31,045 bases of DNA from a virus. Shown in pieces: positions 1 through 15,991 of this stretch. Every line of letters starts with the position of its first letter. Position 1 is the stretch's first letter. Location: IMG/VR virus record IMGVR_UViG_3300037141_000242, positions 1 through 31,045 of that record. One strand, 5' to 3'. The position numbers were made by a program, and so were the translations under genes. The notes beneath the pieces were generated by a model that had not been told where the DNA came from, searched no databases, and saw only the letters and a program-made list of their open reading frames with translations.

Positions 1-3000
1 GTGTCTAACCTTGATCCATAATTACCTACAGTAGATCCAGAAAGATTTACTATTGGGTTTCCAAATATATAGATTGGTGCAGGAGTAACATTATTATCAG
101 AGAAGCTTGATTGTAATGTTGCAGTTGTTAAAGGTAAAGAAGTCCCAGTTTGATTTACTTGGAACGTATAAGTATTGTTATATCTTTCAATAAAGAAATT
201 ACCTTGTGAAATAGCTCTTGTCTCAAGTAATATTTTTGCGCTACCTCTTGTTGTTCCATTTGTATGTCTCAATTCAATTTCAGAACTACCCACAGCACCT
301 CCTGCTAAGTTACCAAGAATAAACATATGTTGGTTCACAGCATCAAATTGGAAAAGAGCTGTACTTGCCAATTGATTAGGATCAGCATAATAAGGAATAT
401 TTTGGGCAATTCCCAAAGCATTTTGCCCCACCAATGTTGTAGCTACAGGAGGAAGTGTTGTCACCACAGATGCTTGCGCAGCTAGTGTTGTATTAAAAGC
501 ACCTGTTGTAGTTAAATTACCTGCAAGAGTAATTGTAAATATACCATTATTAATTCCAGTACCTCCGTAAGTTGGAGAAATGATAGTGGCTTGCCAAATA
601 CCTGTTCCGATTGTTCCTAATGTGGTAATAGACGCTTGGCCTACATATGTTGCAGCAATATCAACAATAACAGCTCCTGTCGCAGGACTTGTGGTAATTC
701 TATTTGTAGTTCCACTTACAGAACTAACACCTGTAACTAAAGCACTAATTTGCGCTTGGAGTTTTTCTGTACCTTGTAATATTGAATCGGTTGCTAATAC
801 AACCGAATTAGGGCCAGCAACAAAGCCTATTAAGATTGCACCAATAGCTCTTGTATTTGTGAAATACAAATTACTTCCTTCAGAAAGATTAGTTGTAGAA
901 ACACTTGCAGTAAGTGCGCCTGTTGCTGTTGCTCCAATAACTCGTGTTGATCCGTCAGACAAATTAGAAATGGTTATAACACCACTGTTACTAATAGCAA
1001 TGCGATCAAAATTATTTGTACGAATAGAAAATGCAAAATTATCTGTAAGCCCTATAAATTCATCACCACCAAAAGCATTTCCATCAATTTTAATAAAAGA
1101 CGAAACGGGAATACCATTAATATTAACAATATTACTAATACTATTTGTACCCATATTAAGAGTACCAGTCATGGTTTTAGAACCGTCTAACATTAAGAAC
1201 TGGTGGTGTCCAGCATCCCCTGCGTTCAAGTTTAATAAACTCAAGTGATCCGCAGAAGCATTTACACCAGAAGATTTGAACCCTACTACAGGTCGTTCAT
1301 CAATCACCTGTACAATGTTAGCAAATCCTTGTTGTACAATAATTCCAGCTATAAGAGTTACAGATCCCCTGAAATAAGAAGGTATAGAAGAAATATTACC
1401 TTGTTGTGCTGCTAATAAACTACTATATTGGGTTTGCCCATATACAAAATAATATTTTTCATTTACAGCATCACCGATTACATAAACTGAATGCTTTGTA
1501 TAATAACCAGCTGTTAAAGGAGTTAACGTACCAGAGACATCATACTGTGTATTGTCCACAGCTGTTTGCCCCGCCAAGTAACCTGAGCCTTGCCCATATA
1601 TTGTTGTAAATGTTATTCCTGTACCACCAGATGGGGAAAATATATTTTCTCCATAATAATATTGTCCTCCACCCACATCTAAATGTAGTGGAGTGACATT
1701 TTCAGTAACAGAACTTCCAAAAACATATATTGGGCCAACCGCGTCTTTTAAAACGTTAACAATTAAGTTAGAAGTATGATTCGCAACTTGAGGAGTATTA
1801 GAAATATATTCTATTGTAGTTCCATTTGTAACTACTCTTCCTAAAATAATATTAAAAACGCCATTAGGCCTAGAAGAACTTGTAGATAAGATCGTGCTAT
1901 TATTGAAATAAAGATATACATCTAGATTAGTTCCCAGAGTAATCGAAATATTACCCCAATCAAATCTTTGGATAACATCATTGTCAGGGAATTGTGAAAA
2001 GTATCCAAAACCAGATGCTATATTAACAGTAAATCCCCCACCATTAGTTAATGCTCCACCGTTTTCTACACCCATAGTGGAACCTTCAGTAATCAAAGTT
2101 GAGACATCGGTCGATGTCCCATTTGGATAAAAAATATTGATTCTATTAGTTAAACTAATATCAAAGTTATCAGTATCTAACAGAATTACCCCCACAGTAA
2201 CAGAAAGTAGTTGGAGTTTTGTATCATCCAGAGTACCTTGTATAGAACCAGTTGCGGTTGGATGTTCTATAGAGAGATCATAAGTAGTATTTGCATTTGT
2301 TATTATACTATCAATATTAATATTTGAAGGTGCTCCAACATTTGCAACACGTATACCATAATTCCAATCACTAATTCCAATACCGTTTGTAGAAAAATCG
2401 GCTCCATTTTCTAAGTAAATGGCAGTACCCGCACCCGTTTCACCGACATAATCGTTTACATAGGTTACAGCATTAGCTTTCGGACCAAAAATATATAAAC
2501 CATAAGTAGGTGATGCGGTAGGGAACAAATAGAAATTTTCTAATTCTACATAGTTTTGGAACGCTGATGCCCCATCAATTAAAACACCTGTAGTAAATAT
2601 ACCATCCACTTCACCATATTCAACATAAAATTGTGAATCTTGTGTATCGGCAGTTATCCACATACCAATATCACAATTCACAATGGCTGTTTTGTGCGTA
2701 ACTGCATAATTCCCCACATCTAACACACGAATACCTGCAAAGCCTGTGCCTGCATTTTGTATTGTTAGAAATTCAATACCTGTCAAATTACCCATCACAA
2801 AAACGTGGTGATTGGCGGCATCTGGTTGTACGAATGTCTGTTCAATTTCAGAACCATGTATTGTTGTTCCGACAGGAAGTGTCAATTGTGGTTCTGTATA
2901 AGTTCCGGGGCCAACTTCAATTAGCCAAGTATTTGTTGGACTTGGGGAAATAATGGCAGCAATAGCTGACGCAATACTAGAATATTCTCCTAGCCCAGGG

Positions 3001-3878
3001 GATTTCTTAACATATAAAACATTATGTGTTTTATATTGTACGTTTGTTTCTACTACACCAAGATCATGATCTACTTCATCAATGGCATCTTGTACATTTG
3101 TCGCAAGTAATCCTGATACAATATTATTGTAAGTAACATTTATCGCGGCATCATTATGTGTAATTTCAGTTTGTAATTGTTGTAAAGCACTTTGTACATC
3201 AGGTCCAGTGATACTTGCAAACGGTGTTATTGTTACATTTGCAGCAACTACTGTTTGATACTCAATATTTCCTGATCCAGAATTATAAGTTAATACTTTA
3301 AAATTAGCAATACCTGTGTTATCCACAAGTACTCCTTGAATTTTGGCAACGGTGGGATTAGGATAGGTACCAGATAAATCTCCTCCTGCTGTTCCTGTCG
3401 GAGTAGAAGATACTGAAACATATTCTAAATGCCCAGATACTGAATTGAATACTAAAGCTTTATTATTACCAATGGCGGAGGCATCAACAGGAGTACCTTG
3501 TATTAAATCGGCATTCCAGATTGCAGTACTATTATTAATGGTAATCTCTAATACTTCGTTTCCTCCCGGATTTAATTTAACTAAAGCTCCAGTAGAATCA
3601 ATGGATAATTTATCCATAAGAAAACCTGATGTAGTATCAGTTGCGCTTACTTTAACTTTAATATCTGTGGTAACGCCTGCGAACACTTCTTTTATCCACA
3701 TGGAACCATCCCAGTAGTAAAAAGCAGATTCAGAAGTGATGAATACTTCTATGCCAGGTGTTTTAAACACAATTTCGGCATCCGCATCAGCTAGGGTAGC
3801 AAATTCGTTAAACGGACCTTGAGGAAGAATGAAAGGAACTTTTTGGCTTTCTTCGTTTGTAGGCGTCGGTGCAGGCAT
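1..3878 (-). CDS. Long tail fibre / receptor-binding protein with beta-helix segment (C-terminus beyond window)
   Basis: The frame is open from an ATG at 3878 to the left window edge (about 1292 codons) without a stop, so the C-terminus is missing. The protein begins MPAPTPTNEE. Residues about 160-180 contain SGTYPNPTVAKIQGV, a linker type common in phage tail fibres. Residues about 289-350 (EYSSIASAIAAI, then EVGPGTY and GTTIHGSEIEQT) look like the start of a pectate-lyase-type right-handed beta-helix. The rest is rich in Gly, Ser, Thr and Asn, with later fibre-like repeats such as LYFTNTRAIGAI. The inferred role is host binding at the distal tail, possibly with polysaccharide contact or cleavage; no catalytic site is visible. 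It is the last gene of the leftmost minus-strand run. No Shine-Dalgarno sequence precedes it; instead a long hairpin lies three bases upstream of the start codon. Confidence 0.8.
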   Translation of the reverse strand, partial: MPAPTPTNEESQKVPFILPQGPFNEFATLADADAEIVFKTPGIEVFITSESAFYYWDGSMWIKEVFAGVTTDIKVKVSATDTTSGFLMDKLSIDSTGALVKLNPGGNEVLEITINNSTAIWNADLIQGTPVDASAIGNNKALVFNSVSGHLEYVSVSSTPTGTAGGDLSGTYPNPTVAKIQGVLVDNTGIANFKVLTYNSGSGNIEYQTVVAANVTITPFASITGPDVQSALQQLQTEITHNDAAINVTYNNIVSGLLATNVQDAIDEVDHDLGVVETNVQYKTHNVLYVKKSPGLGEYSSIASAIAAIISPSPTNTWLIEVGPGTYTEPQLTLPVGTTIHGSEIEQTFVQPDAANHHVFVMGNLTGIEFLTIQNAGTGFAGIRVLDVGNYAVTHKTAIVNCDIGMWITADTQDSQFYVEYGEVDGIFTTGVLIDGASAFQNYVELENFYLFPTASPTYGLYIFGPKANAVTYVNDYVGETGAGTAIYLENGADFSTNGIGISDWNYGIRVANVGAPSNINIDSIITNANTTYDLSIEHPTATGSIQGTLDDTKLQLLSVTVGVILLDTDNFDISLTNRINIFYPNGTSTDVSTLITEGSTMGVENGGALTNGGGFTVNIASGFGYFSQFPDNDVIQRFDWGNISITLGTNLDVYLYFNNSTILSTSSSRPNGVFNIILGRVVTNGTTIEYISNTPQVANHTSNLIVNVLKDAVGPIYVFGSSVTENVTPLHLDVGGGQYYYGENIFSPSGGTGITFTTIYGQGSGYLAGQTAVDNTQYDVSGTLTPLTAGYYTKHSVYVIGDAVNEKYYFVYGQTQYSSLLAAQQGNISSIPSYFRGSVTLIAGIIVQQGFANIVQVIDERPVVGFKSSGVNASADHLSLLNLNAGDAGHHQFLMLDGSKTMTGTLNMGTNSISNIVNINGIPVSSFIKIDGNAFGGDEFIGLTDNFAFSIRTNNFDRIAISNSGVITISNLSDGSTRVIGATATGALTASVSTTNLSEGSNLYFTNTRAIGAILIGFVAGPNSVVLATDSILQGTEKLQAQISALVTGVSSVSGTTNRITTSPATGAVIVDIAATYVGQASITTLGTIGTGIWQATIISPTYGGTGINNGIFTITLAGNLTTTGAFNTTLAAQASVVTTLPPVATTLVGQNALGIAQNIPYYADPNQLASTALFQFDAVNQHMFILGNLAGGAVGSSEIELRHTNGTTRGSAKILLETRAISQGNFFIERYNNTYTFQVNQTGTSLPLTTATLQSSFSDNNVTPAPIYIFGNPIVNLSGSTVGNYGSRLD

Positions 3879-3880
3879 TT

Positions 3881-3917
3881 AAACTCTTTGTTAATAAATA
3901 TCCTTATTAAAGAGTTT
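3881..3917 (-). promoter_or_regulatory. Hairpin directly upstream of the tail fibre start codon
   Basis: On the minus strand AAACTCTTT (3917-3909) can pair with AAAGAGTTT (3889-3881), and an inner AATAA can pair with TTATT. The loop contains AAGGAT. It fills the gap between the stop of the 186-residue gene and the fibre ATG. No T-tract follows, so it is not a classical terminator; control of fibre translation or mRNA processing is an inference. Confidence 0.4.
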
Positions 3918-3918
3918 C

Positions 3919-4479
3919 TTAAAGTGCTTTAAAAACTAATTTCTGAACGCCGGATATTCTAGGATATAGGTAATTACGCAGTAATTCCTTCGGTTGGTTA
4001 ATTAATGTGTAGTGCTCTAATAACTGTGGAGGGTAAATAATTTTCTTCTTTGGACCTTCAACGGGAGTGGGTGTCGGTTGTCCTTTTGCCAATGCAGCTT
4101 TCGTTTCTGCTAAGCTTGGAACATATTTTTGATTTAACTGTTCTGGTCTTGGCGTAGGATCTCCCAAAGCTGGTTTTACTTCGGGTTTTTCGGTTTCTTC
4201 ACTAGGTTGCGTCTTTGCCAGTTCCCCTCTTTTATCCTGTATTACTTCGCCTAATAACGCAAATTTATAATGTAGGTTTAATCCCCATATACGATCTTGT
4301 GTAGCTTCTAAAACATAAATGAGAGGGGAAACGTCATGCACACCTTCGGGAGAACGATATTTGAATTGTAATATCATACCGGGAATAATCTGATTAGCAT
4401 TTACAGGCTTGAAATCAAAAAAACTTCTTAAGTTGTAAATGTTTACTTTAGCGGGATAGCTCCTTTGCGGCTGCATCAT
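3919..4479 (-). CDS. Conserved phage protein of unknown function (186 aa)
   Basis: I cannot name this protein. The N-terminal half is compact and carries IIPGMILQFKYRSPE, then PLIYVLEATQDRIWGLNLHY. As far as I recall, this pattern (PGM.xFxY ... PLIxVL ... GLNLHY) recurs in uncharacterised proteins of large T4-like phages. The middle (about residues 88-145) is low-complexity, rich in Pro, Glu, Lys and Thr, and probably disordered. The C-terminus is basic and hydrophobic. Its start overlaps the end of the PrsW-like gene by 32 bases, so the two are probably translated together. It lies between that protease and the long tail fibre. A virion role is possible but not shown by the sequence. Confidence 0.75.
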   Translation of the reverse strand: MMQPQRSYPAKVNIYNLRSFFDFKPVNANQIIPGMILQFKYRSPEGVHDVSPLIYVLEATQDRIWGLNLHYKFALLGEVIQDKRGELAKTQPSEETEKPEVKPALGDPTPRPEQLNQKYVPSLAETKAALAKGQPTPTPVEGPKKKIIYPPQLLEHYTLINQPKELLRNYLYPRISGVQKLVFKAL

Positions 4480-5209
4480 GCGTAGCTTTAATCTCTTTAC
4501 TTTCTCTAATCAATTCTTTTATCATAAAGAATGATATGATCAATCCTCCAACAATAAACATATACATCATGAATTCTGCATAGAAATTAAGGTCTAGAGA
4601 AAGATTATAATCATAAATGCCATGTAAGATTGCTGCAACAAAAATACCAAATCCAACAAAAAGAGATTTGGCAACTCTAATATAATCTTTAGAATGTCCT
4701 TCAAAGAATGAAAGTTTTAAACTCTTTGATTTAGCAATGTAATAACCCATAATGATGCCACAAATTAAATGTAATACAATGGCTGTTATAGCTCTTGCAA
4801 ATACAACGTTTGATCCATAGAAGATTAAATAATGTACATTTTCAATGATGGCAAAGCCCGCAGAGCACAACATAACATAATACATTGTTGCTATTGGTAA
4901 ATCTTCATGGGCAGATTTTCTTTGCGATGTTGTCCACTTATAAGTAACAAATTTCGTTAACTCTTCGGGAATACCCACTTGGAATATACAGAAGAATAAT
5001 ATGCCACTATTCATTTCTCTCATATTAGGAAAGACGTAATGAAGTATTGTTATCAGTGTAGTTGACATCAATCCAATAACAAAGTATCGTTTCGCTCTTC
5101 GCGGAACAATATAATCTTTTGGTACAAATGAATGAACCAAATACATATAAATGAAGACAGGCAGGATGGCCAATAAAAATGGCAAAATATTATTGTTAAA
5201 CATTGGCAA
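4448..5209 (-). CDS. PrsW-like intramembrane metalloprotease
   Basis: This is a 253-residue protein with about seven hydrophobic segments. All four sequence signatures of the PrsW family are present: EELTK (E82, E83, K86), GFAIIENVHYL (E123, N124), a segment with R139 and H147 followed by GIIMGYYIA, and HGIYDY (H196, D200). In the family these Glu and His residues form the membrane-embedded metal site; bacterial PrsW cleaves anti-sigma factors, and the wider superfamily includes CAAX proteases and Abi proteins. In a phage it could process a viral or host membrane protein, or act in superinfection exclusion or anti-defence. These are inferences. It lies between a small virion-type gene and the unknown 186-residue gene, with which it overlaps. 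Family membership is well supported; the target is unknown. Confidence 0.85.
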   Translation of the reverse strand: MPMFNNNILPFLLAILPVFIYMYLVHSFVPKDYIVPRRAKRYFVIGLMSTTLITILHYVFPNMREMNSGILFFCIFQVGIPEELTKFVTYKWTTSQRKSAHEDLPIATMYYVMLCSAGFAIIENVHYLIFYGSNVVFARAITAIVLHLICGIIMGYYIAKSKSLKLSFFEGHSKDYIRVAKSLFVGFGIFVAAILHGIYDYNLSLDLNFYAEFMMYMFIVGGLIISFFMIKELIRESKEIKATHDAAAKELSR

Positions 5210-5215
5210 GGAGTA

Positions 5216-5455
5216 TTAAGAATAGATTAAAATGGCACGATTAGCTGCAATATTTATAGCTTTAGAATTTCCATTAGCCCAAGTAACTGTAGTTAAACCT
5301 CCAACTACAACCGTTTTAGAAATACTCCAAACAGCGTCTGTTGATAAAGACCCTGGAGCTGCATAGCATGTATATGTGGTTCCAGCCGCGGAATCTATAA
5401 TTGATGCATTGAATGCAAAATCATGTTGTGAAGGTAATCCTGAAGGTGTGTTCAT
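5216..5455 (-). CDS. Small virion-type protein (79 aa)
   Basis: A compact beta-rich protein with the pattern TTYTCYAAPGS...AVWSISKTVVVGGLTTVTWANGN and a C-terminal NRAILIYS. Short proteins of this shape (YxGxAxPGT ... WxIxK ... TxxWAxG ... xxNRAxLxYS) are frequent next to tail and head genes in phages and are usually annotated as structural or hypothetical. I assign no precise role. It is the first gene after the terminator that closes the ribonucleotide reductase unit, and it lies six bases upstream of the PrsW-like gene, so it probably opens the leftmost transcription unit. No Shine-Dalgarno sequence is visible. Confidence 0.7.
   Translation of the reverse strand: MNTPSGLPSQHDFAFNASIIDSAAGTTYTCYAAPGSLSTDAVWSISKTVVVGGLTTVTWANGNSKAINIAANRAILIYS
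5251..5258 (-). promoter_or_regulatory. Candidate T4-type late promoter element
   Basis: The minus strand reads TATAAATA here, an exact match to the T4 late -10 element, about 41 bases upstream of the PrsW-like start. It lies inside the 79-residue gene, and the genome is AT-rich, so chance is a real alternative. It is not known whether this phage uses T4-type late promoters. Confidence 0.2.
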
Positions 5456-5478
5456 TGCTGATCTTTTTATTAAATATC

Positions 5479-5503
5479 AAAAAAGCCTGGCAAAACGCCA
5501 AGC
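5479..5503 (-). terminator. Rho-independent terminator after nrdJ
   Basis: On the minus strand GCTTGGC and GCCAGGC form a seven-pair stem (one G-U) with loop GTTTT, followed at once by TTTTTT. It lies 22 bases past the nrdJ stop codon and before the next gene. It marks the end of the DNA metabolism unit. Confidence 0.85.
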
Positions 5504-5525
5504 TCCATTGATTTTATTGTGTTTC

Positions 5526-7430
5526 TTAAACTGTTGTGATTTCACAAGCTCCTCCAGAACAGGCAGCTTCAGCTGATAAATCGGTTGAATCGTCTGTTTC
5601 TATAACTTTGCTAAAGTCAATATGTTTTAGTTTAGCATATAGTTTCTCAAATTTTTCTTCTGTGATTGATTCGAACGGTGCTTGTACATAAGTGTGATCA
5701 GCGTGTGGTAAAAACGATAATGCTGTATAATCATTCTTATGTTCCCAACACCAATTACCTACTTCTTCCCATTCATTACTCTTTATTGTGATGGTAGCAG
5801 ATACGTTATTTTTATTTCTGCCACCCCTGTGTCCTGGTTTAATCCAATCTTTATGGAACCTTTGTACTCTTTGCAATAGCTCCATAGCTGTTTCTGTACG
5901 AAGAATTGATCCTGGTACTGATCTCTGAGGAATTGATATAACCGCTTGAATATGTGGTTTGAAATAATCGTCTTCTAACAATTCTGGTGCATGAATAGAG
6001 AGATAAGTATATAGGGCTTCATTCTTTCCTACACGCATTCTTCTGATGTAAAACTCATCGTGCCATGCGTGGATACCTGAAGATGTGCCCAATACGCATG
6101 AAGCTGTTCCTTCCGGTTTAATAACCGTTGTTCTTGCAGCTTTGTTAATTCCAATAATCTTAGCTACTCTTTCATTTTCTGCCTTTACAATATCAGCAGC
6201 TTCTTTCAAATTCAGCCCTAATACAGCTTTAGAAGCAATACCTGTCATGGATACACCAATTAAAGCCTCTTTTTCAGTTGTGCGTTTCCAAGATTCTCTC
6301 AAGTAATGAAAATCTGTATAACTTGCTTGTAATGTCCCAATAAACGCTGCAGCTTTAACTCTTTCATTCAAATCATCTTGTGATTCAACATCAGAAGCAT
6401 TAATTGTAGTTAGGTTACAGAATTGGTTTGATCGTAAACTTACCTCTGCACAAGGGTTTAAACCCCAATTTTCATCATTAGTAAAATAGAATCCCGGTTC
6501 TCCCGATCCTGATAATTCAATCTTCTTCCATAAAGCTTTAAATTCTTCTTCAGAAACTCTATCTCTTAATATTGTAGCAGAGTTGTTTGATCTTCCTCTC
6601 TGTTCGTTTAATTCCCACCAGTTTCCAAATTTGCAAGATAACATATCTTCATCATCGAAACTGAATAAAGCAATCATAGCTGCTCTACGAATTCCCCCGG
6701 CCAATACCGCATTTGCTTCATAGCAAAGAATATCATGGCATTCTAAAGGAGTTAACCTTTCACCATTATTCTTATTCTCTAGGATTTGCTCAATTTTAAA
6801 TAAACATTCCTTTAATGGGCCGGCTCCAGGTGCTTTCCCTCCAGAAGTGATTAATTTTGCGCCTTTAGGTCTAATATCAGAAAAATCAAATATAGGTTTA
6901 GAACTAAGACCAAAGTAAGATTTCATCAAAGCTTTAACAGCATCTGCCCAACCTTCAATTGAATCGTTTACTAAGAATCTACGTGTTTTATATGACTTGC
7001 AAATAACAGGAAGTTTTTCTACATGATCAAATTGAACACTATAACCTACTCCTGTGCCAGATAGCAGAAGAAACATTACTTCTGAGAACGCTCTGTAATC
7101 ATCAATATGTAAAAAAGAACAATTGAATAATCTAACTGGATTAATTTCTACTGGTTTCCCTGCGAATTGCATAGAGCGCATGGAAGGTAATACTTGTTTA
7201 TTGTAAACGAATTTGTAAGCGTCTCTGATTTCTCCTTCTAATTTTGGAAATTTCTTAATGTGCATAGTCATATTGCGAGTAACAATCTCATCCCATACTT
7301 CTCTTCTCTCCAGGTGAGGAAGGTATTTCGCATATTTTGAAAATACTGTAATTGAAGATAAAATTTCTTTACTGGAATCTAATATTTTGGGGGAAGAAAT
7401 AGTCCCGACGCTATGTTTGGCATCACTCAT
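5526..7430 (-). CDS. nrdJ: Adenosylcobalamin-dependent (class II) ribonucleoside-triphosphate reductase
   Basis: This enzyme reduces ribonucleoside triphosphates to deoxy forms using a B12-derived radical, supplying dNTPs for phage DNA synthesis without oxygen or a separate radical subunit. It resembles the monomeric RTPR of Lactobacillus leichmannii. Key residues can be read: the redox pair C104 (FNCSF) and C338 (QFCNL), the thiyl-radical C327 within NPCAE with N325 and E329, and a C-terminal re-reducing pair in CSGGAC near the end. The C327-C338 spacing of eleven equals that of C408-C419 in the Lactobacillus enzyme. PEGTASCVLGTSSGIH near residue 440 is also typical. At 634 residues it is about 100 shorter than that enzyme, so some insert or regulatory part is reduced. 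It follows the helicase after a 168-base gap with two hairpins and ends at a terminator. Confidence 0.95.
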   Translation of the reverse strand: MSDAKHSVGTISSPKILDSSKEILSSITVFSKYAKYLPHLERREVWDEIVTRNMTMHIKKFPKLEGEIRDAYKFVYNKQVLPSMRSMQFAGKPVEINPVRLFNCSFLHIDDYRAFSEVMFLLLSGTGVGYSVQFDHVEKLPVICKSYKTRRFLVNDSIEGWADAVKALMKSYFGLSSKPIFDFSDIRPKGAKLITSGGKAPGAGPLKECLFKIEQILENKNNGERLTPLECHDILCYEANAVLAGGIRRAAMIALFSFDDEDMLSCKFGNWWELNEQRGRSNNSATILRDRVSEEEFKALWKKIELSGSGEPGFYFTNDENWGLNPCAEVSLRSNQFCNLTTINASDVESQDDLNERVKAAAFIGTLQASYTDFHYLRESWKRTTEKEALIGVSMTGIASKAVLGLNLKEAADIVKAENERVAKIIGINKAARTTVIKPEGTASCVLGTSSGIHAWHDEFYIRRMRVGKNEALYTYLSIHAPELLEDDYFKPHIQAVISIPQRSVPGSILRTETAMELLQRVQRFHKDWIKPGHRGGRNKNNVSATITIKSNEWEEVGNWCWEHKNDYTALSFLPHADHTYVQAPFESITEEKFEKLYAKLKHIDFSKVIETDDSTDLSAEAACSGGACEITTV

Positions 7431-7462
7431 TGTTCATTCTTATATTAATTGTTATAGATGTA

Positions 7463-7484
7463 GAAACCCCTTGATTGGGGTTTC
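7463..7484 (-). promoter_or_regulatory. Perfect GC-rich hairpin in the nrdJ leader
   Basis: GAAACCCC and GGGGTTTC form an eight-pair perfect stem around a six-base loop, about 33 bases upstream of the nrdJ ATG. No T-tract follows in the direction of transcription. It could stabilise a processed nrdJ mRNA or be a weak terminator. It does not resemble a cobalamin riboswitch, which would be far larger. Confidence 0.45.
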
Positions 7485-7571
7485 AGCGTAGCTTACTTGC
7501 TTCGTAAAATTAAATAATAGATTTACAAGAAAAACTCTTGATGTTCTGAAACTTTTTAGAAACTTTCTTTG

Positions 7572-7592
7572 TCAGAAAATTTATTTTTCTGA
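7572..7592 (-). terminator. AT-rich hairpin just past the helicase stop codon
   Basis: TCAGAAAA and TTTTCTGA form an eight-pair perfect stem with a five-base loop, six bases past the helicase TAA. Only ACAAAG follows, so it lacks a strong T-tract. It may be a weak terminator or an mRNA 3'-end protecting structure. Confidence 0.4.
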
Positions 7593-7598
7593 TACAAT

Positions 7599-10040
7599 TT
7601 AAGTTCCGGATTTTTTTCTGTACGCATCTAATCTGGCCTTCATGGTATCTAGACCTTTTGCTACTCCTTCGCGTTTGCTTTCATCTAATAAAAGAGAACG
7701 ATTCACTGATTCCAATTCCTCAAATGTAACTCGACCTGGATTATAACGCAATTTAAGCATCAATCCTTTCGGACCAAGTCTATTCTTTAATAATTGCACA
7801 TAACATTCTCCAGCATCTTGCATTGGAAGTGTTTGTGTAAATAATAACATCCAATCGCATACTTGATAAACTTCAATTGCTTTACCAATGTTTTGTTCGT
7901 CTGCCATTGCTACGTTAAAACCTCCTCTATTTGATTGGAAAGCTGCGTAGACAGGTAAACGTAACTCTTTGGCCATATCCCTCAGTTCTTCCGCAAGATA
8001 TTCGAATTTATCATTAGCATTTGCGAAGCGCTCATGCCTAGGTGGTTTAACTTGATTCAACCCGTCAACAATAATCATATCCGGAAAGAATCCTTCTGAT
8101 TTCTTTTCTTCTACAATTGCTTTGATTGCATCTACTCTTGCATGAATTGATTTCATTTCAATGAATTTCAATTCGCCTGCAAAAGCTTTTATTTTAGATT
8201 CAATCAAAGTAGGGTGATCGCTTAAGGATTCTTGGTTTACATTTACAATACCCGCAAGGATACGCTGCATCAATTGTATATTGTCCGTTTCTAAACTGAA
8301 GAATAAAACCTTCTTGCCTAGTTGTGCTGCATGTTTAGCAGTTGCAACAAGATAGTTAGTATTATGTACAACAGTAAAATCTTTCAACAAAAACATTTTA
8401 TCTGGATCATTATCACTTATTGTAAAACCATAATAATTACCAAGACCTTTAGATACAACGCTTATAGTTAGACAATCATGTCTTTTATTAGTTTTACGCT
8501 TTATAGCTTGTTTTCTTGCTATCTTAGTTGGGATTAAATGTGTATCACCAGAAATTAATAGCTTAATTGCTTTACCTTTATAATCATAAGATTTTAAAGA
8601 GGTTGTAACTTCTCGTTCACGAACTTTAAATCCTAAACTTCTTGCAAGAAAAGCTATGTCAGCGGCTAAAGTATAGTTTATTTGCGAAATCTCAAAATTA
8701 GTTTTTGTTTGTTTATTCAAATAACCATCTGAATCTAGTAACCCTGCCAATAATTCTAATCTTGCTTGTCTATCATTATTCAAATAAGCAAAAGGAATAT
8801 GTTTATTATTTAATAATCCATAAATTCTTAAATTATCTAATAAGACATTTGATAATCCTTGTTTTGATACTATTGAATGATAGTCTTCATAGTTCTTCTT
8901 TACATCATAGTTTTTTGACGATAAAGTTAAAAGTAATTCCTCAGCATATTCCTTCAAATAACTAACTACTTCCTCATCTTTATTAGTGATCGATTGATTA
9001 GCTGAAGATCCATCACCCAGCCATAGGCCTAGGTAATATGGATCAATTAAAACAGTTTGGCTGCTGAGGTTATCCACTCCAACTTTTATTCCTTTATGGT
9101 TTTTTCTCCAAGTAGCTGATTTCTTTATATAATCTTTCACCTCTATTTTTACAAGAGACTCAGACATTTTAGAATAATTTTTTAAATAATGTTTTGTCGG
9201 TTTTAAAACTAATATGTGCGATTCATTAACTGTGTATGATGTTCCATCATCTTGTTTAATTTCATACATTTCCTCTTGCCCTTGCGCTAAAGAAGTAATT
9301 GTACGAGGTTTTCCATCCCATCCCATGACCTTATCGTTAGTTTTAATATCTTCGACCTTTCGTATAGAAAGATCCTGCATTAAAACTTCAGTTCCTTTAG
9401 CAAAGCATTTACCAAAATTTGATTGTGCCACAATAATACACAAGTCTCCTGCTCCGGGTCCTCCTTTAGAAACCATATTCATAGATGGCAAAGGAGTTGG
9501 TACAGGTGATCTAGAAGCAGAAGACAATGCTTTTGTATAGTCTTTCTTTAAATCGACTTCACTTGATGCATTATTAAGTGGCTTGTATTTTTGAAACGCC
9601 ACTTCTCTTGCTTTATCGAATTTGCCATTCATGATTGCTGCTCTTTCTTCTTCTAATGAAGATAAAGCATGCCGCGTGAAACAAAACTTTGCACATTCTG
9701 CTTCAACGAATTCTTTTCTTGTCAAATCAACATCCTTAATACTATTCAAAGCCAACAAATAAAGCTTTGTTCCAGTTCCCACTTGTGTTTCAATGATTGT
9801 TTTTAACGTTTCAAAGTCGGGCTGACAATGATAGTTATCAATGAAAGTAAGGATTGTCTCACAAATAAATTGATTGTACTTGTTATCAAAGTATTCGGAC
9901 TTGATGATTAGTTTTATTTTATTTGCAAATGCCTTATCTTGGATAAGGAGAGATAAAGTAGCAAGTTGGAACTTTTGTCCAAACTTGCCGAAGTCTTTAT
10001 CCATTTGTGTATCTGTAGTTTCTGCGAACATTACGTCCAT
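7599..10040 (-). CDS. Replicative DNA helicase (DnaB / T4 gp41 type) interrupted by an intein
   Basis: The host protein is a hexameric 5'-3' replicative helicase of the RecA-fold DnaB/gp41 family. Residues 1-211 hold the N-terminal domain and the start of the ATPase core, ending SNFGK. Residues 212-560 are an intein. Residues 561-813 resume with TNYLVATAKHAA, so splicing restores GKT of the Walker A motif. Walker B is seen at MIIVDGLNQV (about 655-664), followed by FQSNRGG, a DnaB-type sensor region. The spliced helicase would have 464 residues, close to the size of T4 gp41. Without splicing the ATP site is destroyed, so activity depends on the intein. Its ATG shares one base with the stop codon of the exonuclease gene (TAATG), implying coupled translation. 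Confidence 0.93.
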   Translation of the reverse strand: MDVMFAETTDTQMDKDFGKFGQKFQLATLSLLIQDKAFANKIKLIIKSEYFDNKYNQFICETILTFIDNYHCQPDFETLKTIIETQVGTGTKLYLLALNSIKDVDLTRKEFVEAECAKFCFTRHALSSLEEERAAIMNGKFDKAREVAFQKYKPLNNASSEVDLKKDYTKALSSASRSPVPTPLPSMNMVSKGGPGAGDLCIIVAQSNFGKCFAKGTEVLMQDLSIRKVEDIKTNDKVMGWDGKPRTITSLAQGQEEMYEIKQDDGTSYTVNESHILVLKPTKHYLKNYSKMSESLVKIEVKDYIKKSATWRKNHKGIKVGVDNLSSQTVLIDPYYLGLWLGDGSSANQSITNKDEEVVSYLKEYAEELLLTLSSKNYDVKKNYEDYHSIVSKQGLSNVLLDNLRIYGLLNNKHIPFAYLNNDRQARLELLAGLLDSDGYLNKQTKTNFEISQINYTLAADIAFLARSLGFKVREREVTTSLKSYDYKGKAIKLLISGDTHLIPTKIARKQAIKRKTNKRHDCLTISVVSKGLGNYYGFTISDNDPDKMFLLKDFTVVHNTNYLVATAKHAAQLGKKVLFFSLETDNIQLMQRILAGIVNVNQESLSDHPTLIESKIKAFAGELKFIEMKSIHARVDAIKAIVEEKKSEGFFPDMIIVDGLNQVKPPRHERFANANDKFEYLAEELRDMAKELRLPVYAAFQSNRGGFNVAMADEQNIGKAIEVYQVCDWMLLFTQTLPMQDAGECYVQLLKNRLGPKGLMLKLRYNPGRVTFEELESVNRSLLLDESKREGVAKGLDTMKARLDAYRKKSGT
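8361..9407 (-). mobile_element. Intein with LAGLIDADG homing endonuclease, in helicase Walker A
   Basis: The 349-residue intein starts at C212 (CFAKGTEVLM, block A) and ends at VVHN560, followed by Thr. The TxxH-like block B is NESHILVL. Two endonuclease motifs are visible: YLGLWLGDGS (about 336-345) and LLAGLLDSDGYL (about 430-441). A terminal His-Asn and a +1 Thr fit a standard Cys1/Asn splicing mechanism. Both the splicing and endonuclease parts look intact, so it is probably a mobile full-length intein. Inteins at the P-loop of phage and DnaB helicases are known; this site between Lys and Thr is one of the most conserved positions available. Confidence 0.93.
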
Positions 10041-11023
10041 TATGAATTTAATTTAATGTCTTGTTTCATAAAATTAAATGGTCTTATCCACAAATCAAAG
10101 TTTTTTATGTGAGATTCTATGTGTTGTTTGATACAATACATTTTTAATCCCACTTTTGAGAAGCCTTTTGCACTTGAATCTTCTAATTGAGAATTCAATA
10201 TTTCAATTCCTCTTTGATTCATGCATGTATAATCGAGTTTCATCAACCCATACATCAAGAAGGCTTGCGCTTTATTTTCCTTTAATTTCTTTCCTAGTTT
10301 AGAATCATCTTCCAGCTTATCAATCTCCGCCCAAAATTCCTCAAATGAAGCGAATGGTTGCGTTTTAAGCTGGGGAATCTTCTCTAACAGAGTATCCTGC
10401 CCTATTCCCTTAATCCCTATTAATTTGTCAGAAGAATCTCCGACGATACAGCGCATATAAACAAAGTTGCTAGGAATAACTTCATGCTTGGCTAATACTA
10501 ACGCTTCATTGTAAAGCGTTTTCTTTTGAGGAGCCCAAACGAATGTATCTTTATTGATTAATTGATAGTAGTCTTTATCATTTGTATTTATGATGCTCAT
10601 GTATTCTGGATTCTTATTTACCAAATATGCAATCACATCATCTGCTTCGTAATAAGGGACAACAACTAGATCAACTGGTAAGAACTTTAAGAAATCAATT
10701 AACATCCTCAATTGTTCTTGCTCATTATCTACTTGTACTTTATCACCGTCTCCAAAATCCATCACAGAGAAACGTTTTTTCTTTCCACGTTTTCCTTTAT
10801 AGTCTTTGAAAATACTTCTTCTTCGTTGCCCTGCATTCGGTCCATCGAATACAACAACAACTTTTTGTGGATTAAACTTCGCCACTAGTCTTTGTAACTG
10901 AGTCACAAACCCTATAAAGCCACCAATAGGTTCTCCATTCGAATCACTCGCTTTAAATATGGCCAACATTTGGTACCAAAGGTTGAATCCGTCCACGTAT
11001 AATATTTTAGATTTTGTTTCCAT
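10040..11023 (-). CDS. 5'-3' exonuclease / flap endonuclease (T4 RNase H-like)
   Basis: The enzyme should remove RNA primers and 5' flaps during lagging-strand synthesis. It has the PIN/FEN metal-site acids in order: D11 (YVDGFNL), D60 (VVFDGPN, followed by GQRRR), E126-D128-D129 (YEADD), D149 and D151 (TNDKD), and D196/D199 (GDSSD). The helix-three-turn-helix DNA-binding motif is GIKGIGQDTLLEK (203-215). Its length of 327 is close to the 305 of T4 RNase H. The start region is unusual: METKSKILYVDGFNL is a re-coded version of a second, orphaned N-terminus found at 11230-11292, and the two are separated by a homing endonuclease remnant that overlaps this gene's first 17 bases. The stop codon overlaps the helicase start (TAATG). 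Confidence 0.92.
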   Translation of the reverse strand: METKSKILYVDGFNLWYQMLAIFKASDSNGEPIGGFIGFVTQLQRLVAKFNPQKVVVVFDGPNAGQRRRSIFKDYKGKRGKKKRFSVMDFGDGDKVQVDNEQEQLRMLIDFLKFLPVDLVVVPYYEADDVIAYLVNKNPEYMSIINTNDKDYYQLINKDTFVWAPQKKTLYNEALVLAKHEVIPSNFVYMRCIVGDSSDKLIGIKGIGQDTLLEKIPQLKTQPFASFEEFWAEIDKLEDDSKLGKKLKENKAQAFLMYGLMKLDYTCMNQRGIEILNSQLEDSSAKGFSKVGLKMYCIKQHIESHIKNFDLWIRPFNFMKQDIKLNS

Positions 11024-11252
11024 ATAAATGTTGTGTTAAAATCTCTTTAATGTTTTTTAATTCTGTATATGGAATTCTTATTAAAGTAATATTTTTATTT
11101 TTATTATTACATTGTGTGCAGCCATACTTCCAATAAATATGGGCTTGGTAAGATTGATAAAAAGACCCATGCTTTTTACAAACAATCTCGACCTTCGCCC
11201 ATACATTGGTGTACTTCACTTTTGCATAATCATAGATTAAAGCCATCGACAT
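11007..11252 (-). CDS. Internally deleted homing endonuclease remnant (81 aa)
   Basis: Residues 7-49 (YDYAKVKYTNVWAKVEIVCKK, then HGSF and GCTQC) match the zinc-binding DNA-recognition module seen in phage endonucleases of the EDxHD/Vsr-like group. The next part, ITLIRIPYTELKNIKEIL, resembles the final strand and helix of such enzymes. The catalytic core that should lie between them is absent, so the protein is probably inactive as a nuclease. Its first six residues (MSMALI) are out-of-frame exonuclease sequence and its last ones overlap the exonuclease start. It therefore lies exactly between an orphaned old 5' end of the exonuclease gene and the new one. The two-part reading is from pattern memory, without a search. 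Confidence 0.7.
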   Translation of the reverse strand: MSMALIYDYAKVKYTNVWAKVEIVCKKHGSFYQSYQAHIYWKYGCTQCNNKNKNITLIRIPYTELKNIKEILTQHLYGNKI

Positions 11253-11292
11253 AGAGAACCTTTGATTTAGCTGTTACGCTTTCTGGTGTCAT
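11230..11292 (-). pseudogene. Orphaned original 5' end of the exonuclease gene
   Basis: The frame reads MTPESVTAKSKVLYVDGFNL and then TGA. Residues 8-20 align with residues 3-15 of the working exonuclease (TKSKILYVDGFNL) with eleven of thirteen identical. Of the eleven codons for identical residues, ten differ in sequence (for example TAT/TAC, GTC/GTG, GAT/GAC, GGC/GGA, TTT/TTC, AAT/AAC). Its ATG lies one base after the stop of the UvsX C half, the position expected for the native downstream gene. I infer that it is the native start, cut off by insertion of an endonuclease element that brought its own re-coded 5' end. Confidence 0.85.
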
Positions 11293-11293
11293 G

Positions 11294-12616
11294 TTAGTCT
11301 TTCATTTCTTCAGGAACTTCTTCAACTTCCTCCTCTTCGAAAGGTTCAACAGGAACTGCTGCATCGGTTGGAATAGGTGATCTAACCAACTTTTCACAAA
11401 TTGTCGAACGGACTTCTTCATGCAATGCAACATCGGAAAGCATTTCTTTCCATCCATCTCTTTTGAATTTACCCAATTCAGGATGGTTTAAAAATTGGTA
11501 TTCGAAACTAGACACAGCTTTTACAATGTTGTACTTTATACTGTAATCAAGCCAAGCATCTTCTTCAATAATACCTTGGGAGAAAACAATTCTGAATTCG
11601 GCTTCTCTTCTTGGAGGTCCGACCTTGTTTTTATCAGTACGAGCGGTAACATCGTATCCAATTATGATTTCATCTCCTTTTTGTTTCTTTGGTTTTTCTG
11701 GCTTATCTCCAACCTTACCTTGATTCTTCCAACCTTCGACTTTTAGATTCCAAGCATTCAATTGATTTCTGTGCTCGGCTTCTGCGAATGGATCAAGTTC
11801 AACCACTGGAGTTTTACCTTGTAACTTAATACGTACTGTCGCTGCAAACTTTACTGAGTTACCACCTGGAGTCGTATTATGATTTATTTGTCCATTTGCA
11901 ATATAACACTCAGTTCCTCCTACACTAATATCAACGACTTGCATAGGTGAATCTATTTTTACAATATTATCTCCTTTGGCAAAGCGATCTGCAGAAGTTT
12001 CCCATTGTTCATCTTCTTTGCTCCAAGTTCTATGAACAGAAGTTGTTTTTAAAATTTCTGAGCTTGAAGTTATTTCATAGTGTTCACTTACACTTTCTTT
12101 TACAACGAAAGCATTTAAAGGTTTATAAACAACTTCTTTTTTAACTACATCGTATGATTTTATTAACAACCCTAAGTCAGTCAAATCTTTAACTTGGATT
12201 GTATCTAAATCAATATTAAGCTTTTTTGCTAAATCCGCAAAAGAGATTTTCATGTCTACCATCTCGGATTTCTCATCTTTTTTTGAGACATAAGAATCTT
12301 TGCTTATTCTCACAAAAGGTTCTTTAAAGCCCTCGCTTTCATAGTACATACCTTTACCTATTGCAGAAATTGCAACTTCTTCCTTGAATGTAGATATCTT
12401 GCTCAGCGCAACTACTTGTGTCTCAAAAGGTTCTACTATTTTTATTTTTTTTCCTTTGAATAAATCTATTTCTTGTATTGCTTCCACTCCAATTTTTTTT
12501 AAATCTTCACTCGAGAATACTACATCGGCAAGTTCGCCTTCAGATGTATTAAAAGTTATTCCTTTTCTTGAACTTAAAGCCTTATGCTGGTCGCAAAATT
12601 CTAATAATGTTTTCAT
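11294..12616 (-). CDS. uvsX: Split UvsX, C-terminal half, preceded by intein C fragment
   Basis: Residues 1-247 are the intein C fragment and 248-440 the recombinase C half. The extein starts TTPGGNSVKFAATVRIKL, matching the RecA loop L2 and following strand (E. coli TTTGGNALKFYASVR). It ends in a very acidic tail (PFEEEEVEEVPEEMKD), as in UvsX and RecA. The N half, encoded at 13524-14276, ends GDPT before its own intein piece, so trans-splicing would yield GDPT-TTPGG with no residue lost. The joined recombinase would have about 419 residues; T4 UvsX has 391. UvsX forms filaments on single-stranded DNA for strand exchange and replication restart. Neither half alone has both the ATP site and the C domain. 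The start ATG lies one base past the endonuclease gene stop. Confidence 0.92.
   Translation of the reverse strand: MKTLLEFCDQHKALSSRKGITFNTSEGELADVVFSSEDLKKIGVEAIQEIDLFKGKKIKIVEPFETQVVALSKISTFKEEVAISAIGKGMYYESEGFKEPFVRISKDSYVSKKDEKSEMVDMKISFADLAKKLNIDLDTIQVKDLTDLGLLIKSYDVVKKEVVYKPLNAFVVKESVSEHYEITSSSEILKTTSVHRTWSKEDEQWETSADRFAKGDNIVKIDSPMQVVDISVGGTECYIANGQINHNTTPGGNSVKFAATVRIKLQGKTPVVELDPFAEAEHRNQLNAWNLKVEGWKNQGKVGDKPEKPKKQKGDEIIIGYDVTARTDKNKVGPPRREAEFRIVFSQGIIEEDAWLDYSIKYNIVKAVSSFEYQFLNHPELGKFKRDGWKEMLSDVALHEEVRSTICEKLVRSPIPTDAAVPVEPFEEEEVEEVPEEMKD
11876..12616 (-). mobile_element. Intein C fragment (247 aa) with an N-terminal extension
   Basis: Splicing motifs: block B TSVH (T192, H195), block F/G CYIANGQINHN ending at H246-N247, and +1 Thr. 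Residues about 145-190 (GLLIKSYDVVKKEVVYKPL through HYEITSSSEIL) match the strands before block B. No endonuclease domain is present, as expected if the nuclease is the separate gene upstream. About 120 residues at the N-terminus are extra compared with what is needed to complement a 24-residue N fragment. They include VEPFETQV, which resembles VDPFTTEV of the N fragment but lacks the leading Cys. An internal Met at 122 could be another start. Confidence 0.85.
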
Positions 12617-12617
12617 T

Positions 12618-13499
12618 TTATTTTTCTTTTAAATTTGTTAAAAATTTTATTATGTTGTGTGTGTTTAATCTAACGTAAGACTCCCAATAAACTATATACT
12701 TCATCCCTTGCTCAGTTATCTGTTTGTTTCTTAGAGAGTCAACTTCCCAAATTTCTTTTGCTTTTATTCCCCTTCTATCATCTTCTGATTTGAAAAACTT
12801 AGGATTACAGTGCCAATAGTCACCAAACAATTCAATTGCTAGGTTGAATTTCGGAAGGTAGAAATCAATAAAATAAGTTTTGCCATTTGTTTCTACGACC
12901 TTATCAATTTCAAATTCTATGTTTAGTAAAGTTAGGATTCCAGCAAAAGTAAACTCTAAATCATTTACTTTCTTTCCCTTCAGCAAAAATAATTCTTTTG
13001 TATTTTTTACGCTATGTTCCTTTTGCCACTCTACCAAATTAAACCTATTAGGTCCAGAAGATAGCTTCTCTCGGTGTGCCTTACTTCTATCAGTATTCCA
13101 ATAGTTATTTAACCAATTTTCCCTTCTTCGAATTTTCAACGCTGGATCGCTCCATGCTTTTTTTCTACTTTCTGACACTTTAGCTATATAATCAGGATTA
13201 CTCCAAGTTTTGCCTTTAACGCTAGTTTTCAGCTTTTCGTTATACAAAACTAAAGATGCTTTAATTTGTTCTTCATCTTCTTCTTTAATTTTGTTTTTTA
13301 AGAGAAAATTCAAAGCATTTGTATAGCCCCAAGATTCTTTTCTAACCTTATAAATTAACTTACCAATTTCGCCAAAGTGTTTTTCATAATCTTCTTGTGT
13401 TTTTAGATTAACACTCTTAGGTTTTTTTACTCTGATTTTAACCTTGCTATAAGTAGAGTCAGTAGTTAATTCAAAATATGTTTCAAAAATTGTTTTCAT
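12618..13499 (-). CDS. Vsr-like (EDxHD) homing endonuclease between the split intein genes
   Basis: A free-standing 293-residue nuclease gene. The C-terminal domain (about 180-293) has DFYLPKFNLAIELFGDYWH (D212, E223, D227, H230), then W251-x-x-D254-x-x-R257 and GMKYIVYWES, the layout of very-short-patch-repair-type nucleases and of the homing endonuclease family found between split-intein genes in environmental phages (Dassa and co-workers, from memory). The middle (NPDYIAKVSESRKKAWSDP) resembles nuclease-associated DNA-binding modules, and the region around residues 120-160 is basic. It lies 24 bases after the UvsX N half and 1 base before the C half. It probably cuts intein-free uvsX alleles, spreading the whole fractured arrangement. 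Confidence 0.88.
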   Translation of the reverse strand: MKTIFETYFELTTDSTYSKVKIRVKKPKSVNLKTQEDYEKHFGEIGKLIYKVRKESWGYTNALNFLLKNKIKEEDEEQIKASLVLYNEKLKTSVKGKTWSNPDYIAKVSESRKKAWSDPALKIRRRENWLNNYWNTDRSKAHREKLSSGPNRFNLVEWQKEHSVKNTKELFLLKGKKVNDLEFTFAGILTLLNIEFEIDKVVETNGKTYFIDFYLPKFNLAIELFGDYWHCNPKFFKSEDDRRGIKAKEIWEVDSLRNKQITEQGMKYIVYWESYVRLNTHNIIKFLTNLKEK

Positions 13500-13523
13500 T
13501 CACCAGGAGTTTACTTTAAAATA

Positions 13524-14276
13524 TTACTCTTGGAAGAATTTTTGATAAATATCCTTAGGAATCTTTAATTCTACTTCTGTTGTGAAAGGATCAACGCATG
13601 TAGGATCCCCAAACATTACACCTGGTTTGTCTCTCAATTGATTTACAATATAAAGTACTGCGTTTGCTTTTCTTAAAAACGGAGAAATCTTTCTTAATCC
13701 TTTTCCGATTTGTTTTGCTTTCGCCAAAGCAATATTCATGTTCGCTTCAAAGCCTGCTTCAACTTCAGCGTCTGTTGACATTTGTGCTAAAGAATCAAGG
13801 CAAATAAAGATTGGCTTGTTCTTGTAAGTCTTACTGTTTATAATGGTTGTAAGATTTTGTTCCATCGCTGCAAAGATTTCTTCTACTGAAGTTAATCCCG
13901 AAATTATAGTGCGGCTTAAATCTACACCACATGCTTGCATCATATCTCTTGATCCAGCTTGCTCCACATCAAAATAAATTGGGATTCCTCCCATCTTTTG
14001 ACAATTTGCCATCGCTTGAAATGCAAGAGTTGATTTTCCAATTGCTTCTTGCCCATATACTTCAACAACTCTTCCACAAGGCCAACCTCCAGTAGGCTGA
14101 TTAGAAATGATTGTATCAAGAATGCAAGAGCCTGTTGGAATCCAGATTTTAACATCAGAGAACATATCGTCTCCTGTCACAGCTGCTCCAGGAAATAAAG
14201 CATTCTGTTCGCCAATTAACTGTCCAAAGATTTCATCTACTTTTTGGACAGTCTTTTTGCCTGGTTTTTCTTTCAT
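13524..14276 (-). CDS. uvsX: Split UvsX, N-terminal half, ending in a 24-residue intein N fragment
   Basis: Residues 1-226 are the N part of a RecA/UvsX recombinase: Walker A GQEAIGKST (75-83), a RecA-type GRVVEVYG lead-in, FDVEQAG (E105 near the catalytic Glu position), Walker B PIFICLDSLAQ (D161), and NQLRDKPGVMFGDP (212-225), which is loop L2 entry. The sequence then leaves RecA homology at C227 and ends after CVDPFTTEVELKIPKD and eight more residues. The missing C half starts at residue 248 of the protein encoded at 11294-12616. The gene follows the gp32-like gene after a hairpin-containing spacer and has no Shine-Dalgarno sequence. It is inferred to be active only after trans-splicing. 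Confidence 0.93.
   Translation of the reverse strand: MKEKPGKKTVQKVDEIFGQLIGEQNALFPGAAVTGDDMFSDVKIWIPTGSCILDTIISNQPTGGWPCGRVVEVYGQEAIGKSTLAFQAMANCQKMGGIPIYFDVEQAGSRDMMQACGVDLSRTIISGLTSVEEIFAAMEQNLTTIINSKTYKNKPIFICLDSLAQMSTDAEVEAGFEANMNIALAKAKQIGKGLRKISPFLRKANAVLYIVNQLRDKPGVMFGDPTCVDPFTTEVELKIPKDIYQKFFQE
13527..13598 (-). mobile_element. Very short intein N fragment (24 aa)
   Basis: It starts at C227 of the UvsX N half and runs CVDPFTTEVELKIPK to the stop codon. It supplies the nucleophilic Cys1 and little more than block A. Most natural split inteins break near the endonuclease site and have N fragments near 100 residues. Atypically split inteins with N pieces of about this size are known from environmental phage genes, as I recall including terminase and uvsX. 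Confidence 0.85.
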
Positions 14277-15514: not shown

Positions 15515-15991
15515 CTACTGTTTCTGAACAAAGATGTCTTCAATAAAAGCACTAATAATATGATTTGTAAATGGGCCAGACCACACAATTGGAAATATAT
15601 TTATGTCCGCCATTTCAGCAATTTCTTTTGTTATTGCAAAGCCCATCGTTAATCCTTTTAGGGAAGCAGATAATAAGTATACTTCATTATCCCTGACAGT
15701 TAATAAATAACTATAACAAGTATATGCGGCTCCCAAATCAATGATTCTATCTTCTAATAAACTAATCTGTTTTTTGATTTTGGGTTTCATTTCTAAATCC
15801 AAAGCTTTGTCTGCACTTAGAATTGGTTTAAAAGGTACATCTGGGTCACCTTCTACAAACTTTAAATCTAAAAATGCTTGTTTTGGCGCAATGATATGAA
15901 TAGCGCATAATTCCCCCTCTGGTAAATCAGGAGTAATGTAAACATTCGGTTTCTTGATTATCATTTCGGCCATTGTATTCATAATTTCCAA
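15515..15991 (-). CDS. Unknown phage protein (158 aa)
   Basis: No family is recognised. The sequence looks like a soluble alpha/beta protein: KPNVYITPDLPEGELCAIHII, a helical middle (MKPKIKKQISLLEDRIIDLG), then strands YTCYSYLLTV and VYLLSASLKGL, and a final FIEDIFVQKQ. There is no signal peptide and no zinc motif. The start overlaps the previous gene's end by 13 bases; Met4 or Met7 would reduce or remove the overlap and are realistic alternatives. It is followed by the 115-base leader of the SSB region, so it probably belongs to the unit above it. Confidence 0.65.
   Translation of the reverse strand: MEIMNTMAEMIIKKPNVYITPDLPEGELCAIHIIAPKQAFLDLKFVEGDPDVPFKPILSADKALDLEMKPKIKKQISLLEDRIIDLGAAYTCYSYLLTVRDNEVYLLSASLKGLTMGFAITKEIAEMADINIFPIVWSGPFTNHIISAFIEDIFVQKQ

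Follow-up and report, generated by a model that had tools for sequence, protein, structure and literature searches.

A predicted PrsW-family intramembrane protease gene from a conserved phage branch carried chiefly by very large uncultured phages

Intramembrane proteases act as signal switches in cells, and a gene for such an enzyme in a virus genome raises the questions of whether the enzyme is intact, whether phages conserve it and whose membrane protein it would cut. A sequence-only reading of IMG/VR record IMGVR_UViG_3300037141_000242 had proposed a catalytically able PrsW-like protease at positions 4448-5209 that might redirect host transcription, disable a membrane-anchored defense protein or block superinfection. 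The window analyzed here is that whole virus record of 31,045 bases, which is probably a fragment. Its genes for a UvsX-like recombinase, a DnaB-like helicase, an exonuclease, a single-strand binding protein, a tail collar protein and a gp2-like protein mark the source as a putative T4-like tailed phage. The gene and its four motifs, with residues numbered from the ATG, are as follows.

4448-5203, minus strand: prsW-like gene, 251 amino acids from the ATG, predicted seven-helix membrane protein
4952-4966, minus strand: motif 1 (EExxK), EELTK, residues 80-84, helix 3 of the model
4829-4858, minus strand: motif 2 (GFAxxENxxY), GFAIIENVHY, residues 116-125, helix 4
4742-4771, minus strand: motif 3 (HxxxGxxMGY), HLICGIIMGY, residues 145-154, helix 5
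4610-4624, minus strand: motif 4 (HGxYD), HGIYD, residues 194-198, helix 6

The open reading frame at 4448-5209 exists, but it lies on the minus strand, and the plus-strand reading of the same letters is full of stops. The earlier start, an in-frame TTG at 5209, gives a protein of 253 residues; the ATG at 5203, two codons further in, is the likelier start. All four PrsW signatures are present as had been claimed, and E82, H147 and H196 are found at those positions in the TTG numbering. The motifs were held by all 18 phage copies (the window and 17 others), with HGIYN replacing HGIYD in motif 4 of L096. EExxK, the EN of motif 2 and the histidines of motifs 3 and 4 were invariant among the 18, and E80, E81, K84, E121, N122, H145 and H194 were kept in all 16 rows of alignment A8, two of which are cellular. 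Loss of metal-site residues in close relatives did not occur. A chance open reading frame or a pseudogene was ruled out by the Pfam match described below and by the motifs in 18 of 18 copies.

PF13367 (PrsW-protease) was the sole significant Pfam family of the window protein, matching residues 43-219 at 61.1 bits (E 1.4e-16; cut-off 23.5), and the nine phage copies tested besides the window's also passed it at 63.7-84.7 bits. With a score over the curated cut-off and no profile placing the protein outside the PrsW/CAAX superfamily, the proposed family placement is borne out. The NCBIfam PrsW equivalog model NF033739 scored 61.9 bits; because this is far under the cut-off of 225, the profiles identify the protein as a PrsW-family member and not as an equivalog of Bacillus PrsW. 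No profile match to Abi or CAAX proteins was found, as the CPBP/type II CAAX/Abi Pfam model had no match to the window protein at E<=1 and the PADLOC models matched 0 families for four proteins at E<=1. No PHROG was matched by the window PrsW protein, three PHROGs each matched one of the 16 aligned PrsW members (best E 0.0012), and a sequence search of the PDB with the window protein gave no match.

An AlphaFold2 model built on 16 aligned sequences (the window and related loci) had a pLDDT of 88.8, a pTM of 0.88 and seven long helices (residues 6-26, 34-57, 69-93, 103-129, 131-161, 172-202, and 207-250), and six hydrophobic segments were found by Kyte-Doolittle analysis. The structure prediction that the sequence-only reading had called for thus depicts a multi-pass, APH-1-like membrane protein with motifs 1-4 within helices 3, 4, 5 and 6, and the loop charges, judged by eye under the positive-inside rule, fit an N-out/C-in topology in this model. 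The best solved structure found by a second-look aligner in the PDB was gamma-secretase APH-1 (5a63_C; Z 15.2 over 191 residues, rmsd 3.6), followed by chains 8oqy_C (14.5), 7tm3_6 (12.9) and 9c7u_C (12.6). The further APH-1 matches had Z values of 14.5 and 14.1, and the BOS/multipass-translocon subunits 12.9, 12.6 and 10.6. The best unrelated row was a CcmABCD chain at Z 9.3, and it is against this background that the seven-helix APH-1-like fold stands out at 15.2. Foldseek against the PDB and a BFVD viral fold search returned no match to the model at E<=0.001.

Translated searches (tblastn) of 50,697 phage records with the window protein detected two true relatives, the uncultured huge phages LR745206 (634,780 nt) and LR756502 (642,428 nt), whose alignments covered 90-92% of the protein with 32.5-32.8% of residues identical (E 5e-27 and 4e-29); the L094 copy as query recovered the same two phages and no more. 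A hit in Staphylococcus phage OR849863 was set aside as probable host DNA because its match is like that of a Staphylococcus aureus record with genes for a CoA transferase and a nickel transporter next to PrsW; the flanks of the OR849863 copy itself (L004) are unannotated. Alignment scans of IMG/VR gave 15 loci with A6, the 353-kb and 362-kb contigs among them, and two with A3 (two A6 contigs were already in the A3 result), and scans with other strict PrsW peptide patterns gave no relative or only their own query contig. The 17 further phage copies were all in uncultured contigs, four of them of 353-642 kb, and the other PrsW-bearing records were fragments under 40 kb. A T4-type major capsid protein (Gp23) was detected in four of 17 records searched, exactly the four large ones. 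Four loci (L098, L100, L101, and L102) are near-identical, and the 18 copies therefore represent about 15 independent ones. Sequence comparison places the window gene in a conserved phage branch of the PrsW family whose carriers are mostly very large uncultured phages. We found no report of this branch in the literature, most subscription papers and bioRxiv being outside reach, and the accessible part of a comparison of 224 jumbo phages contains no occurrence of PrsW, CAAX, CPBP or intramembrane (PMC7824862); a conserved, phage-borne branch was seemingly undescribed before.

The phage gene is maintained for its protein product, with purifying selection (dN/dS 0.12, 0.11, 0.16, 0.10, and 0.12) in five chosen phage pairs, none of which includes the window copy. 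In a phylogenetic tree, 16 phage rows fell on one side of a branch with support of 100/99 and 14 cellular rows on the other; L101 and L102, nearly identical to L100, were omitted, as was L129, for which the open reading frame picked was the same as that of L127. The cellular rows were L005 and L006 (marine Pseudomonadota), L116 and L117 (Bacillota, plasmid records) and ten more, from the 10 genomes with PrsW at E<=1e-10 among 249 drawn across phyla. Because this sample is without Bacteroidota among its cellular rows, the "phage-specific" branch may shrink with their inclusion. Among the phage rows, the window sits on the longest terminal branch (length 1.67; nearest sequence 33% identical), and with this and the branches of over 3 in L117, L127, L128 and L130, inner placements are unsure.

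In other phages the gene has a possible anti-defense neighbor. An Acb1-like 2H phosphodiesterase gene was present near PrsW in eight of the 17 other loci, at offset -1 in L095, L097, L099 and L104, -2 in L107, -3 in L094, -4 in L096 and +10 in L093. The L095 protein matched solved Acb1 chains (9q2g, E 1.4e-4; another, E 0.0034), and the L094 protein passed PF23474 (Acb1, 29.3 bits), but the cut-off of PF13563 (2_5_RNA_ligase2) was also exceeded by the Acb1-like neighbor, at 28.3 bits; PHROG 755, to which the neighbor belongs, is named RNA ligase. Acb1 has an anti-CBASS role and a catalytic tetrad of the form HxT/HxT, according to the portion of the source available (PMC9117128), and both HxT motifs were invariant in four aligned Acb1-like proteins. 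By these matches the neighbor is surely of the 2H superfamily and not surely an anti-CBASS enzyme, and the pairing is suggestive of an anti-defense site. The pairing is limited to part of the family, where the other neighbors are metabolic or mixed: a small acidic protein of no known family was shared by 12 loci, a thioesterase by seven and DHFR, named by eye, by nine, and an HNH-like gene was also among the neighbors.

Several other observations were made at these loci. Six PrsW loci carry, near their Acb1-like gene, a member of the phrog_2072 family that is macrodomain-like by eye (GSNPEGRHGAG; L094:6533-6985 and five relatives). In LR756502, PrsW is directly followed by a gene (L003:11977-13601) for a glycoside hydrolase of family 16 (PF00722, E 5.8e-14). 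The 353-kb and 362-kb phages (L134 and L135) have, next to a sigma factor gene, one that is SmpB-like by eye. On the contig of L093, which is the same as that of L087, 11 of 34 genes carry a common leader like MKYIKTFEDFINE, the remainder of each differing. This leader resembles the capsid-targeting leaders of T4-type head proteins, and it may mark proteins packed into the head. In two marine Pseudomonadota genomes, cellular PrsW overlaps a gene that by eye resembles a pentameric ligand-gated channel (L005:4675-6799 and L006:7815-9921), a possible functional pair.

The explanation that we tentatively favor is that an intact PrsW/APH-1 intramembrane protease acts in infected cells by cutting a membrane protein of the host, with counter-defense as a plausible purpose. 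The protein would insert in the host inner membrane with its C-terminus inside, helices 3-6 would gather two glutamates and two histidines into a metal/acid site, and this site would cut a transmembrane or membrane-proximal segment. The likeliest substrate would be a host membrane protein with one or a few passes, the removal of which would benefit the phage, candidates being a membrane-anchored defense effector or sensor, or an envelope-stress regulator. Among the substrate readings, we place counter-defense first because the Acb1-like gene is within four genes of PrsW in seven relatives. The earlier suggestion that PrsW might disable a membrane-anchored defense protein accordingly receives some support: the Acb1-like gene stands beside PrsW in other phages and is absent from the window. 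A narrower version, in which PrsW is a phage-specific enzyme that destroys membrane immune effectors or sensors such as transmembrane CBASS effectors while the Acb1-like enzyme beside it would remove the cyclic-nucleotide signal, is possible but doubtful. If it is true, no earlier case is known to us, from the literature searched, of a phage turning an intramembrane protease against immunity. Were PrsW to act on host membrane immune or stress proteins, phages would have a novel form of control over their hosts, and CBASS with membrane effectors, to which the paired Acb1-like gene points, offers a concrete test system.

For ALTERNATIVES, the sigma control, lysis and scaffold readings were weighed against the sigma-70, lysozyme N-domain and EExxK data. 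Redirection of host transcription, also put forward in the sequence-only reading, would have PrsW cut a host membrane anti-sigma factor and free a stress sigma factor or a phage sigma factor, and we judge it unlikely. Bacillus PrsW cuts RsiW, as the accessible text of PMC4602095 has it, and all four large phage records with PrsW encode proteins with sigma-70 region 2, which in LR745206 and LR756502 are ECF-like and only about 200 amino acids long. The idea is weakened by zf-HC2 anti-sigma domains in none of the same four records, by the want of a one-helix anti-sigma-like partner beside the seven sigma genes inspected by eye and by the window protein's failure to reach the PrsW equivalog cut-off. 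Large phages, moreover, commonly carry sigma factors anyway (PMC13282480, in the part available).

A further explanation turns on the immediate surroundings of the gene in the window.

3-3878, minus strand: open reading frame of 1292 amino acids running off the contig edge, fiber-like by eye
3919-4479, minus strand: gp2/DNA-end-protector-like (T4 gp2 type) gene, a weak match to phrog_429 (E 7.9e-7)
5216-5455, minus strand: gene of 79 amino acids with no known family match, its stop 12 nt before the prsW ATG
5482-5506, minus strand: terminator-like hairpin of 11 pairs and a T tail, between the ribonucleotide reductase gene and the 79-amino-acid gene

The gp2-like gene, which had no Pfam match and no tblastn match in phages, overlaps the 3' end of prsW by 32 nt. 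Ten terminator-like sites were found in positions 1-12000 vs. 6.1 expected in shuffles, and that at 5506-5482 has the most pairs; because this hairpin intervenes, prsW would appear to lie outside the reductase transcription unit. The placement "between virion-type genes" therefore holds downstream, with the gp2-like gene and the fiber-like frame, and not upstream, where the reductase lies beyond the 79-amino-acid gene and the hairpin. That PrsW processes a phage membrane or virion protein in maturation or assembly, rather than a host protein, would suit its close spacing with these two downstream genes and its separation from the reductase by the hairpin. We consider this quite unlikely, since no one-helix partner gene is common to the PrsW loci and the neighbors of the window prsW do not recur in other PrsW phages: none of the gene families near it was found near PrsW in the 17 other loci, where neighbors differ, and a tail-fiber neighbor is thus not a general feature. 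The late expression inferred earlier from the gene's position was likewise not supported. An exact TATAAATA occurs just once on the coding strand, at 5258, against about four expected by chance by our estimate at the base composition of the window, and a late promoter upstream of prsW was rejected as not above chance. An association of PrsW with ribonucleotide reductase was also rejected. PF13367 was detected in 0 of 80 whole records, most of them fragments and many short, holding the best 80 of 505 reductase relatives, and in 4 of 14 control genomes searched as a control; prsW is an accessory gene because it is absent from all 80 records with the nearest reductases.

Putative mobile elements were noted elsewhere in the window. 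The UvsX gene is fractured (11294-14276, minus strand), with an N-half gene at 13524-14276 matching phrog_97 positions 17-233, and a C-half gene at 11294-12616 matching positions 234-467. The ends look intein-like by eye, and the halves are separated by a free-standing gene for an endonuclease (12618-13499); UvsX is likely encoded by a split-intein fractured gene with a homing endonuclease. The DnaB-like helicase gene (7599-10040, minus strand) has a long in-frame insert at about residues 203-609 that matches terminase and primase PHROGs and is likely an intein common to these families. A GIY-YIG-type homing endonuclease gene, by eye, lies at 29265-29858 (minus strand) between baseplate-type-looking genes.

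A non-catalytic role as a membrane scaffold or chaperone, like that of APH-1 and TMEM147, is improbable. APH-1 and BOS/multipass-translocon subunits, the closest solved structures, are partners not known to be proteases themselves, which favors such a role. The EExxK, motif-2 EN and histidines of motifs 3 and 4 that are invariant in 18 of 18 copies are at odds with it, and APH-1, to our knowledge, lacks EExxK. An Abi/CPBP-like superinfection exclusion or immunity factor seems no more probable than a scaffold; PrsW belongs to a broad superfamily of type II CAAX and bacteriocin-related membrane enzymes (PMC4602095, accessible part), but the CPBP/Abi Pfam and PADLOC models were unmatched, as described above.

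Release of a membrane-tethered lysozyme by PrsW, timing lysis, is the least probable explanation: lysozymes with a conserved N-domain, one hydrophobic helix and exchangeable GH24/GH108 domains do lie no further than about 7 kb from PrsW in L002, L098/L100/L101/L102 and L105, but the N-domain profile matched 6 of 17 PrsW-bearing records in three lineages, missed the 353-kb and 362-kb contigs and LR756502, and no tethered lysozyme was seen among the window frames read by eye. The L105 N-domain had no tblastn match at E<=0.01 in the 50,697 phage records. The lysozymes with the common N-domain and helix are these.

L002:5389-6363: GH108
L105:766-1680: GH24-type
L098:4526-5365: lysozyme with the same N-domain and helix

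A hint to the hosts came from the translation starts. None of the 23 genes counted in the window was preceded by Shine-Dalgarno-like letters, and in the 17 other loci 16 of 327 genes were. For comparison, such letters stood before 9 of 20 genes of Microcystis phage Mel-JY01 and before 398 of 5000 positions drawn at random from the window. The window count omits the TTG gene at 15515-15991 and the edge frame at 29864, and a mechanical rule chose the genes at the other loci. Absence of Shine-Dalgarno sequences is usual in Bacteroidota and their phages. Because such sites are scarce in the window and the other loci, we lean toward Bacteroidota as the putative hosts, and in that case the RsiW biology of Bacillus would not be directly transferable.

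Among known systems, PrsW of Bacillus subtilis (PF13367) shares with the phage protein the profile match, the four motifs and the multi-helix membrane fold. The phage copy differs in its score under the NF033739 cut-off, its separate tree branch and its phage genome context, and Bacillus PrsW has the anti-sigma partner RsiW, none being known for the phage copy. APH-1 and the BOS/translocon subunits have the seven-helix arrangement in common with the window model (Z 15.2 and 12.9) at sequence identities of 11-14 and 8-11%, respectively, and the phage protein keeps EExxK, unlike these partner subunits. A distant superfamily tie of PrsW to the type II CAAX protease Rce1 and CPBP-Abi has been reported (PMC4602095, accessible part), and Rce1 (4cad_C) aligned with the window model at Z 5.6 over 153 residues, among unrelated helical rows. 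A virus-encoded PrsW-like domain also occurs in aquatic RNA virus genomes, where it is linked to the viral polymerase, as the available text of PMC7508674 describes, whereas in DNA phages PrsW has a gene to itself. A conflict setting has also been proposed for PrsW in polymorphic toxin systems, where it forms the N-terminal domain of toxin proteins (PMC3482391, available text), whereas the phage PrsW stands alone.
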